This document shows, piece by piece, positions 27,232 to 29,254 of a DNA stretch of 64,000 bases. How positions within the stretch are numbered: the stretch's first letter is position 1; the number at the start of each line of letters is the position of its first letter. The stretch spans positions 1 through 64,000 of the forward strand of contig CALVEH010000003.1 of NCBI GenBank assembly GCA_944326545.1. Reading direction: 5' to 3'. The notes under the pieces were generated by a model that was given only the letters and a program-made list of their open reading frames with translations, did no database searches and was not told where the DNA came from. The DNA comes from Candidatus Gastranaerophilales bacterium (GTDB lineage: Bacteria > Cyanobacteriota > Vampirovibrionia > Gastranaerophilales > Gastranaerophilaceae). Made by a program: the position numbers and the translations under genes.

Positions 27232-27315
27232 TATTATAAACATTTAAAAAAATTTATGCTTGTATTAGAATAGAAACATAACTTGAAAATTTAATAATCA
27301 AAAAATTATCGGGAC

Positions 27316-27357
27316 ACTCTGCCGAACAAAACATAACTAAATGTTATGTTTTGAGAG
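27316..27357 (+). repeat. hairpin cassette, copy B1
   Basis: ACTCTGCCGA, a 10-bp stem AAAACATAAC/GTTATGTTTT around TAAAT, then GAGAG. The outer CTCT can pair with AGAG. Confidence 0.85.
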
Positions 27358-27423
27358 AGGAAGCAGCTTAGCTGCGCTAGTCCCAAAGGATTGAAAATTT
27401 AATAATCAAAAAATTATCGGGAC

Positions 27424-27465
27424 ACTCTGCCGAACAAAACATAACTAGATGTTATGTTTTGAGAG
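27424..27465 (+). repeat. hairpin cassette, copy B2
   Basis: Same as copy B1 with one change, the loop TAAAT becoming TAGAT. Confidence 0.85.
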
Positions 27466-27523
27466 AGGAAGCAGCTTAGCTGCGCTAGTCCCAAAAGATT
27501 GAAAATTTAATAATCAAAAATAT

Positions 27524-27597
27524 CGGGACGTAGCGCAGCTTGGTAGCGCACTACCTTGGGGTGGTAGGGGTCGCAGGTTCAAATCCTGTCGTTCCGA
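27524..27597 (+). tRNA. tRNA-Pro (anticodon GGG)
   Basis: A 74-nt cloverleaf: acceptor CGGGACG/CGTTCCG, D-arm GCGC/GCGC, anticodon stem CTACC/GGTAG around TTGGGGT (anticodon GGG, decodes CCC/CCU), T-arm GCAGG-TTCAAAT-CCTGT. No CCA is encoded. It is preceded by two units containing copies of its own 5' end and followed 117 bp downstream by a copy of its 3' end. Confidence 0.92.
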
Positions 27598-27776
27598 TAT
27601 TTTTTTGTGTTTGTTCGCAGGTTCCACGTTTCGGATTTTTTACGTACTGCGTACTCAAAAATCTCTCACCTGATCCTGATTCGTACGGCTCATTCTTCGC
27701 CTACGACTCAAGACAAATCCTGTCGTTCCGATATTTTTTTGTGTTTGTTCGCAGGTTCCACGTTTCGGATTTTTTA
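27580..27776 (+). repeat. 63-bp direct repeat containing the tRNA-Pro 3' end
   Basis: 27580-27642 and 27714-27776 are identical by eye (offset 134). The repeat starts within the T-arm loop (CAAATCCTGTCGTTCCG) and continues 45 bp past the tRNA. Duplication of a tRNA 3' end is the classic mark of an integrase attachment site, but only 71 bp lie between the copies and no integrase is in the window, so it may be the scar of an excised element. Confidence 0.85.
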
Positions 27777-27801
27777 GATATAAAAACGCTAATTTATAAA
27801 A

Positions 27802-27831
27802 GAAAGACTTTGATAACACAAAGTCTTTCAG
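27802..27831 (-). terminator. terminator for the TRL-like gene
   Basis: GAAAGACTTTG-ATAACA-CAAAGTCTTTC; on the minus strand it is followed by TTTTAT. It lies 40 bp after the stop of the TRL-like gene. Confidence 0.7.
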
Positions 27832-27871
27832 CAACTTAATTACAAATAAAAGCAATACAATTTACAAACAT

Positions 27872-28183
27872 TTAATATCCATAGGCTTCAACTGTAACTT
27901 TTTTATAACCAATAATATTTCTCGTATAAGTATCATAAAAAGCAAGACTTCTAATTTTGCCATTATTCATCGCATCTTTTATTCCGCATTTGCCAAGTGC
28001 TACAAGAGCGAAATAACTGGTACAAGTAGCAGTACCTTTTTTATATGGCCCGGCATTACTTGAACCGGAACCGGGTTCAGTTGCATTCTTATACAACAAG
28101 CCATAGGAACTTTCTGCCATAACAGGCAAAGCTGCTGAAAATCCTAAACATACAAAGCACAATAATACTAACATTTTTTTCAT
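27872..28183 (-). CDS. TRL-like family secreted protein
   Basis: A 103-aa protein with a signal peptide (MKKMLVLLCFVCLGFSAALP, cut near AESS). The mature part fits the TRL-like pattern: GLLYKNATEPG ... KKGTATCTSYFALVALGKCGIKDAMNNGKIRSLAFYDTYTRN ... KKVTVEAYG. TRL-like proteins are small envelope proteins of unknown function. Two cysteines in the mature domain (CTS and GKCG) could form a disulfide. Lone gene with its own terminator. Confidence 0.65.
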   Translation of the reverse strand: MKKMLVLLCFVCLGFSAALPVMAESSYGLLYKNATEPGSGSSNAGPYKKGTATCTSYFALVALGKCGIKDAMNNGKIRSLAFYDTYTRNIIGYKKVTVEAYGY

Positions 28184-28269
28184 ACCTAACTCCTTAAAAA
28201 ATAAACACTACCAGATGACATGATAACCTAACATAGCAACATCGCCAAGTAATTATGCAAAAAAAATAA

Positions 28270-28809
28270 TTAAAATTTACCTAAAAACTCATCTAATGAA
28301 ACTACGCAATCTATTTCTTGTGCAGCAATTTTGTCTTTATATATGTATTCATAAGACTTGTTTTTATTAAAAAACTTTTTTAATGCAGCAGGAGTGCCGT
28401 ATCTTAAATGCAAAGCATCAATAACACATTCTAAAAATTTTATAGGATTCTTTGGTAATTTATCGTAGTTACCATTTTTAAACATAAAAAATTTATTTTG
28501 ATTTCTTATAAATAATTTTTTTAAGTCCAAATTCTTTGTAGAAATTTTTAAAACAACATTATCACTACCTGTACTAATATGGGCTATTAGCATGTCTTTA
28601 AGATTTTCATTATTAACAAAAGCTTTTGACCATTGATTAATATAATTATTTTTTTCAACAGTAAAAACAGCCTGTTTATTAAGAATTCTATCGTGATTTT
28701 GTTTAATGACACCATCACGAAGTATATTGCGGTAATTTTCAGTAGTAGTCAAATGATACAAATAATCAGGTATATTTTTTCTTAAAAAGCCAATTTTCAT
28801 AAAATTCAT
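28270..28809 (-). CDS. hypothetical protein, ART/DarT-like N-terminus
   Basis: A 179-aa basic protein. YLYHLTTTENYRNILRDGVI (residues 16-35) has the 'YH-x-T-x-x-x-N-x-x-x-I-L-x-x-G' start of NAD-binding ADP-ribosyltransferase-fold domains (DarT, DUF4433, RNA 2'-phosphotransferase). It is followed by AVFTVEKNNYINQW, which may be the second NAD-binding strand. The terminal catalytic Glu is not obvious; CVVSLDEF near the C-terminus could supply it. Alternative start MKIGFL at 28800. No antitoxin-like partner is next to it. Function is a hypothesis. Confidence 0.4.
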   Translation of the reverse strand: MNFMKIGFLRKNIPDYLYHLTTTENYRNILRDGVIKQNHDRILNKQAVFTVEKNNYINQWSKAFVNNENLKDMLIAHISTGSDNVVLKISTKNLDLKKLFIRNQNKFFMFKNGNYDKLPKNPIKFLECVIDALHLRYGTPAALKKFFNKNKSYEYIYKDKIAAQEIDCVVSLDEFLGKF

Positions 28810-28933
28810 TCTAGGTAAGACCTTTAATCAAAAACTTTTACAAAAATAAAGTAGAAAAATAATAAAAATTGCTATTAAAAAAAGTATAGTCAAATTATTT
28901 TATGTTAAAATTGCTATATAACTTAAACAATTT

Positions 28934-29050
28934 GTCGGGATGTAGCAAGGACTCCGTTTGGAACGATTAAGTATCGTTACAAATGGAGGTAGGCGAATCA
29001 GAAAGCTTGCTTTGTGTGAGCCGTATTAGAATTACCAAACTACGCCTGAC
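28934..29050 (+). repeat. diverged structured unit D before tRNA-Pro(CGG)
   Basis: Begins GTCGGGATGTAGC, the same as the tRNA at 29178, then ACTCC and a long hairpin: CTCC-g-TTTG/CAAA-t-GGAG enclosing AACGAT-TAAGT-ATCGTT (28952-28988). It ends CTACGCCTGAC, which can pair with the 5' GTCGGG..GTAG, closing a 117-nt fold. The design matches units B and C, but the sequence of the cassette has drifted. Confidence 0.6.
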
Positions 29051-29055
29051 ATAAA

Positions 29056-29161
29056 AAACTAAATAATTCGTCGGGATGTAGCGCAGTTTGACTCTGCCGA
29101 ATAAAAATAACTAAATGTTATTTTTATGAGAGGTAGCACCGTAGGTGCGCTACCCTATGAG
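29056..29161 (+). repeat. structured unit C before tRNA-Pro(CGG)
   Basis: A 106-bp unit: a 35-bp copy (29056-29090) of the tRNA leader and first 18 tRNA bases (again at 29162-29196), then the cassette at 29091, then GGTAGC-ACC-GTA-GGT-GC-GCTACC (29132-29154), a fold-back that continues the tRNA sequence in degenerate form. Confidence 0.9.
29091..29132 (+). repeat. hairpin cassette, copy C
   Basis: ACTCTGCCGA, stem TAAAAATAAC/GTTATTTTTA around TAAAT, then TGAGAG. Compared with copies A and B the stem differs on both sides at several positions while pairing is kept. Confidence 0.85.
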
Positions 29162-29177
29162 AAACTAAATAATTCGT

Positions 29178-29254
29178 CGGGATGTAGCGCAGTTTGGTAG
29201 CGCACCGTGTTCGGGTCGCGGGGGTCGCAAGTTCGAATCTTGTCATCCCGACCA
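29178..29254 (+). tRNA. tRNA-Pro (anticodon CGG)
   Basis: Acceptor CGGGATG/CATCCCG, D-arm GCGC/GCGC, anticodon stem CCGTG/CGCGG around TTCGGGT (anticodon CGG), T-arm GCAAG-TTCGAAT-CTTGT; discriminator A at 29251 followed by CCA in the DNA. An intrinsic terminator follows. Two structured units lie immediately upstream, as for the other tRNA-Pro gene. Confidence 0.92.

Follow-up and report, generated by a model that had tools for sequence, protein, structure and literature searches.

Hairpin cassettes in duplicated ends of RNA genes of Gastranaerophilales, a candidate family of miniature mobile palindromic elements

Both tRNA-Pro genes in the window (the whole stretch of DNA analysed, 64,000 nt) are preceded by tandem units that bear a hairpin cassette. 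Across the order Gastranaerophilales, a group of cyanobacteria-related bacteria of the gut, such cassettes sit inside partial copies of tRNA, tmRNA and 5S genes. We conclude that the cassette is probably a non-autonomous mobile palindromic mini-element of ~44 bp, the insertions of which into RNA genes survive with a duplication of the gene end. Mobility is the part of this reading that we infer, and it leans on comparison between species.

Results

A covarying hairpin cassette is widespread in the order

The cassette is ~44 nt in length and has the form ACTCTGCCGA-stem-CTAAATG-stem-GAGAG. The genome that contains the window (G000, 2.19 Mb) holds 30 exact copies of ACTCTGCCGA and none of a reversed-pattern control, and a covariance model detected 44 cassette matches (E up to 0.1). 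We aligned 18 distinct copies from this genome over 45 columns. Eight stem pairs had changed on both sides, and the covariation score was matched by no slid register and by 0 of 500 shuffles, a figure that should not be read as a probability because a single genome supplied all the copies, which may be related. The initial annotation had noted covarying stems and concluded that structure is under selection; the covariation is borne out, but selection is one of several possible causes. The stems differ among the copies of a single genome and covary, whereas a recent mover would leave identical copies, so that either structural selection or palindrome correction may be at work. The pattern could stem from the structural needs of the element, from selection on each array or from palindrome correction in replication.

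The covariance model found the cassette in 214 of 241 Gastranaerophilales genomes, representing 36 of 50 genera, with up to 116 copies in other species of the genus, and gave no match outside the order in a phylum sample of 292 genomes. As the initial annotation had anticipated for a search of relatives, the copies are non-random in position and accompany a copy of the local gene. An exact pattern scan of viral contigs returned no cassette, so no phage source was seen. Rfam 15, searched at strict and lax thresholds, held no family for the cassette and gave only tRNA, SRP RNA and rRNA beside L029, and our literature search found no description of the arrays. A dispersed composite repeat, in which a cassette is flanked by GTCCGAGAAAAATTCGTGATAAGGAGC and GAAGACGTGAACGAATTTTTGGAC, occurs at L018, L011, L016, L017 and L056; it reaches about 240 nt, includes several nested hairpins and has no Rfam match.

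Units at the two tRNA-Pro genes

The features of the window are listed in Table 1. Two units had been described before each tRNA-Pro gene, with four cassettes in all. Both genes and the paired units are present, but the span holds three copies of the cassette (cassette C), not four, and unit 1 of tRNA-Pro(CGG) carries a different cassette, AAGGACTCCG...GGAGGTAG, which the model matches at 18 bits. Only the gene-proximal of the two tRNA-Pro(CGG) units bears cassette C, in the order TCGGGATGTAGCGCAGTTTG copy, cassette, GGTAGCACCGTAGGTGCGCTACC.

The two 5′ units of tRNA-Pro(GGG) are 108 nt each and 98% identical, and both consist of leader, CGGGAC, cassette and GCAGC-TTA-GCTGCGCTAGTCCC. Apart from one missing base, the right arm of this fold-back (GCTGCGCTAGTCCC) reverse-complements GGGAC(G)TAGCGCAGC, the start of the tRNA; what had been taken for a degenerate fold-back of the D-arm region is actually the tRNA's own 5′ end, copied in inverted orientation. 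The suggested pairing of GGGAC with GTCCC appears in the predicted fold, a three-way junction of cassette, fold-back and outer GGGAC/GTCCC stem (z about -5; 0 of 200 shuffles as stable).

On the 3′ side of the same gene, a 63-nt exact repeat of the tRNA end and trailer (27580–27642 and 27714–27776) encloses a different insert of 71 nt that is absent from the initial annotation, and related inserts were found at the equivalent place in other species. In the window at 27580–27776, as in L258–L261 and L263, the inserts on this tRNA-Pro 3′ side are of other kinds: they feature CGTA..GCTC..GCCTACG hairpins and a GACAGGAT-GTA-ATCCTGT fold-back, and repeated copies of the tRNA 3′ end border them. This kind of place is common to different cassettes. 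The 3′ array at the contig end (cassettes at 49–93 and 165–208) probably belongs to a tRNA-Phe located off the contig, as judged from its P1 (GTGGTGCCACGTCTC), which matches the end of the tRNA-Phe adjoining the equivalent array in L215. Separately, positions 27030–27175 (GTGATGGCTGattCCGGGGATT ... GGCTACTAGCttTGGGG), between the SRP RNA and tRNA-Pro(GGG), are conserved and kept in other members of the genus. An Rfam search of this segment gave no match, and it is possibly an unannotated non-coding RNA.

Table 1. Cassettes, units and associated features in the window
Feature	Position	Strand	Evidence
Hairpin cassette C, 3′ array at contig end	49..93	-	61 bits
Cassette C, left-truncated, first in contig-end 3′ array	165..208	-	21.8 bits
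Unit 1, 5′ of tRNA-Pro(GGG): leader copy (TTGAAAATTTAATA...), CGGGAC, cassette, inverted tRNA copy	27283..27390	+	direct repeat
Hairpin cassette C copy 1 (tRNA-Pro(GGG) unit 1)	27316..27360	+	model R1, 68.9 bits; covariation
Fold-back GCAGC-TTA-GCTGC-GCTA-GTCCC in tRNA-Pro(GGG) unit 1	27363..27384	+	sequence, predicted fold, inverted-copy scan
Unit 2, 5′ of tRNA-Pro(GGG)	27391..27498	+	direct repeat
Hairpin cassette C copy 2 (tRNA-Pro(GGG) unit 2)	27424..27468	+	63.2 bits
Leader of intact tRNA-Pro(GGG); TTGAAAATTTAATA box is left edge of duplication	27499..27522	+	
Intact tRNA-Pro(GGG)	27523..27598	+	
Different 71-nt insert, T-loop side array at tRNA-Pro(GGG) 3′ side	27643..27713	-	family D4
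Unit 1, 5′ of tRNA-Pro(CGG): TCGGGATGTAGC and a different, structurally similar cassette (28947-28989)	28935..29054	+	weak model match, 18 bits
Unit 2, 5′ of tRNA-Pro(CGG): TCGGGATGTAGCGCAGTTTG copy, cassette C, GNA-loop fold-back	29071..29154	+	
Hairpin cassette C copy 3 (tRNA-Pro(CGG) unit 2)	29091..29133	+	59.6 bits
Intact tRNA-Pro(CGG)	29178..29254	+	

Cassettes lie before G-N-A triplets in copies of gene ends

Thirteen tRNA isotypes are affected (Ala, Arg, Gln, Glu, His, Ile, Leu, Lys, Met, Phe, Pro, Thr and Val), as are tmRNA and, in L029, 5S rRNA. The proposal of a mobile element that targets tRNA-Pro and rebuilds its 5′ end is therefore largely supported, but was too narrow both in the genes named and in the end, since 5′ and 3′ ends are involved.

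At loci fetched solely via the cassette, a tRNA or tmRNA lay within 400 bp to the right of 109 of 180 cassettes and to the left of 9. Over all fetched loci, an intact gene to the right with its left end repeated beside the cassette was seen 127 times, versus two mirror cases. Cassettes of sense genes are on the D-loop side, at positions 6–26; those of antisense genes are in the T-loop, or in the anticodon loop for elongator Met. The repeated segment extends from near the transcript end to the junction, and in the antisense (3′) arrays it includes the terminator, with the cassette beyond. Such an arrangement is what one would expect if the repeat always had to span the gene end to the junction, and the positions occupied within the tRNA may in part be those at which the gene can survive an insertion. 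Units are about 85–150 bp long, several arrays open with a left-truncated cassette, and some copies are far from any RNA gene.

In the intact gene, G-N-A stands directly to the right of the junction in all 48 gene/position types, against a background of 7.1% of positions in the same genes; these types span 13 tRNA isotypes and tmRNA and are partly non-independent, as they include neighbouring species and position counts that are off by one. Where one cassette is nested in another (L165 and L177), it directly precedes the GTA on the host's right edge. As for the other cassettes of the window, the tRNA-Pro(CGG) variant precedes GCA, and the 3′ insert of tRNA-Pro(GGG) has a GAA junction if its ambiguous edge is shifted one base left. 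To the right of the junction, two to five target bases are missing. The tRNA sequence usually restarts four to six bases past the cassette, so that a few bases of the target have been lost or altered.

On their left side, the 5′ duplications often start at a common box, TTGAMAATTWAATA. Of the 101 genes that have a unit, 44 show the box, against 5 of 51 unit-free genes (p = 1.7e-5). We considered the box as a promoter and rejected this, because its spacing to the tRNA is too variable and it is uncommon in unit-free genes.

Of 57 distinct triloops in the second hairpins of the units, 33 are of the GNA type and 43 have a C-G closing pair; shuffling the flanks yielded a total of 14 triloops. Inverted tRNA copies that span the junction reach 15 nt, and at tRNA-Val the stems of the second hairpin have changed on both sides between species. 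C-GNA-G mini-hairpins are unusually stable in single-stranded DNA. Taken together, the GNA triloops, the opposite polarity of 5′ and 3′ arrays and the copies past terminators favour a process at the DNA level, while edges near transcript ends and left-truncated first cassettes leave room for an RNA step.

Empty sites and turnover within the genus

Among 23 genomes of the genus, the tRNA-Pro(GGG) site is empty (G109 and G005), decayed (G003) or filled with one to three units, which lie at position 6–7 or 19, differ in their stems and sometimes contain nested cassettes. Some contigs of the genus end within this array. The flanks of the two empty sites are syntenic with the corresponding flank in the window (577/679 and 541/622 identities, respectively), and the alignments stop 25 nt before an uninterrupted tRNA; the flank in the window aligns with the unit-free species up to 27280–27282. 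For the filled species G227, the alignment stops 165 nt before the next-in-line tRNA. These alignments show that the site is empty in relatives and that the left edge of the repeat is close to the expected transcript start. The units turn over quickly, and this comparison between species is the main evidence for mobility.

In the window's genome, contigs C3, C8, C11 and C14 have ends inside cassette arrays. The repeats therefore interrupt the assembly and conceal intact tRNA genes where contigs end. That the units are themselves an assembly artefact, a concern raised in the initial annotation, is ruled out by diverged units and by >200 independent assemblies.

Candidate enzymes

No transposase or integrase could be tied to the cassette. 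RAYT (Y1) transposase genes were found in 79 of the order's 241 genomes, and a cassette lies ≤220 bp upstream of 5 of the 26 genes that we inspected. These upstream cassettes suggested RAYT as the mobilizer, which we rejected after reading the RAYT flanks: the genes are bordered not by the cassette but by their own classical, GTAG-tagged repeat, GTAGGTTGGGC-ATACTT-GCCCAAC. No Y1/RAYT match was found in the window's genome, despite its 44 cassette matches. In L215, the loop of one cassette hairpin is interrupted by a RAYT gene (1326–1853, minus strand) that has a GTAGGTTGGGG...CCCAACCTAC repeat on either side. This arrangement suggests that the RAYT element targets hairpin loops, and a cassette near a RAYT gene is accordingly better read as a target. 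Reverse transcriptase matches were present in 49 of 117 genomes searched. Seven genomes of the genus were included, all carrying the cassette, and only G000 had a match; reverse transcriptase was rejected as a partner, since it does not track cassette number.

Discussion

We propose that the cassette would enter structured RNA genes, as well as other palindromes, at the position directly before a G-N-A triplet, and that it may move as hairpin single-stranded DNA. At an RNA gene, the surviving insertions would be those within a duplicated copy of the gene end, with a repeat that reaches from the leader start to the junction on the 5′ side, or from just past the terminator to the junction on the 3′ side. 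The intact gene would stay on the right of the cassette through this end duplication, and duplication and insertion may be one event or closely linked. The unit also holds a fold-back, which in many cases repeats the uninterrupted tRNA arm in inverted form with C-GNA-G triloop closure. It would then multiply in tandem, the cassette acting mainly as a selfish element.

The strong covariation of the cassette stems and the stable predicted folds would also suit functional RNAs kept by selection, such as structured leaders, decoys or tRNA-like RNAs from the tRNA precursor, as would the two-sided stem changes in the second hairpin at tRNA-Val. Furthermore, with the native promoter region on one side and the tRNA on the other, the 5′ arrays are probably transcribed, although transcription need not be function. 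We nevertheless find a functional role unlikely to account for the arrays, given that the cassettes of 3′ arrays are antisense and past the terminator, that tmRNA and 5S are also affected, that many copies are away from RNA genes, and that positions vary between species of a genus in which empty sites occur. Co-transcribed tRNA-like RNAs, the second option of the initial annotation, do not hold as an account of the whole family in view of the antisense 3′ cassettes, the copies far from RNA genes and the two species with empty sites. Replication template switching at hairpins would dispense with a dedicated enzyme altogether, yielding fold-backs and tandem repeats with the cassette as the commonest by-product or a passenger. 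Inverted copies with 3-nt loops are expected from snap-back synthesis, and equivalent places are occupied by different cassettes; however, an invariant GNA junction, together with the presence of one conserved 44-nt sequence at hundreds of sites that are otherwise unrelated, demands sequence-specific joining, and we rate template switching as rather unlikely.

We also consider an RNA intermediate improbable, in which the ends of tRNA precursors were reverse-transcribed with a template switch to cassette RNA. Such retro-duplication would agree with where the repeats begin, which in 5′ arrays is close to the expected start of the transcript and in 3′ arrays is immediately beyond the T-run of the terminator, and with the truncated cassettes that open several arrays. 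But the cassette is in sense with the gene in 5′ arrays and in antisense in 3′ arrays, and a single RNA polarity gives no simple account of this reversal. Reverse transcriptases do not follow cassette number, and the GNA triloops point to DNA hairpins. Mobilization of the cassette as a REP/REPIN element by the RAYT transposase of the order seems very unlikely: the G-N-A-type motifs common to the cassette and the RAYT repeat, and the occasional cassette upstream of a RAYT gene, are outweighed by the RAYT genes' own flanking repeat, by the target-like cassette of L215 and by the genome with 44 cassette matches and no RAYT match. Under the preferred reading, a mobile palindromic mini-element, the arrays would belong with the very small mobile palindromic repeats, with a smaller chance of a new class. 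We regard it as possible, if doubtful, that the cassette represents a class of miniature mobile DNA that spreads as hairpin single-stranded DNA at GNA mini-hairpins of RNA genes, and that copies the target arm in inverted form and rebuilds the gene end in one event without a dedicated transposase.

A considerable share of the order's tRNA genes are accompanied by partial, cassette-bearing copies of their own ends, and the arrays affect both tRNA annotation and assembly. The cassette illustrates a route into essential RNA genes without killing the host. It also provides a natural model in which to study the movement of very small hairpin repeats that have no recognizable transposase, a problem that dates from REPs and SDRs.

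The small dispersed repeats (SDRs) of filamentous cyanobacteria, reportedly described by Elhai et al. in 2008 (Genome Res. 18:1484), are very short structured repeats that, like the cassette, enter precisely at a short target and in other repeats and have no known enzyme. As a conserved short structured sequence that is precisely inserted and dispersed in a genome of the cyanobacterial lineage, the cassette may be of a similar kind, a likeness drawn from general and secondarily cited descriptions of SDRs. To our knowledge, the sequences involved are different, and SDRs are not described as restoring RNA genes via end duplication. Of this group, SDR5 inserts precisely inside HIP1, according to PMC4390886. 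REP/REPIN elements with their RAYT proteins are also short palindromic repeats that occur in clusters and form hairpin DNA (PMC2817692, PMC3116915, PMC3733652). The cassette lacks the GTAG or similar motif of REPs at its 5′ foot, beginning instead with ACTCTGCCGA, and its GNA is on the 3′ side and part of the target; nor is it the repeat that flanks the RAYT gene. Duplication of tRNA ends is a trait of the cassette and not of REPs.

Mobile double-hairpin elements and GC clusters of fungal and algal mitochondria are small hairpins with compensating stem changes, near or in RNA genes. They resemble the cassette in these respects and differ in being organellar, and arrays of copied gene ends that share an invariant GNA junction are not known to us among them. 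Rickettsia palindromic elements are palindromic insertions of about 100–150 bp in bacterial genes, mainly in coding sequences and in some RNA genes; they are longer than the cassette, and the genes that they enter are not known to be rebuilt by duplication.

Phages and islands that integrate at tRNA genes likewise find their target in the tRNA arms and leave an intact gene, as with phage Ms6, which integrates in the T-loop of a tRNA-Ala that is restored (PMC1762012). The cassette differs in having no integrase, att core or cargo, its body being a 44-bp hairpin with inverted tRNA copies; integrase and identical attL/attR core, the mark of tRNA-targeting integrative elements, are both lacking, and the unit is too short for an integrase gene. 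It is also set apart from MITEs, as no cognate transposase was found and its target duplications are long and defined by the gene end. Against these known systems, the cassette arrays look like an undescribed kind of miniature mobile DNA.
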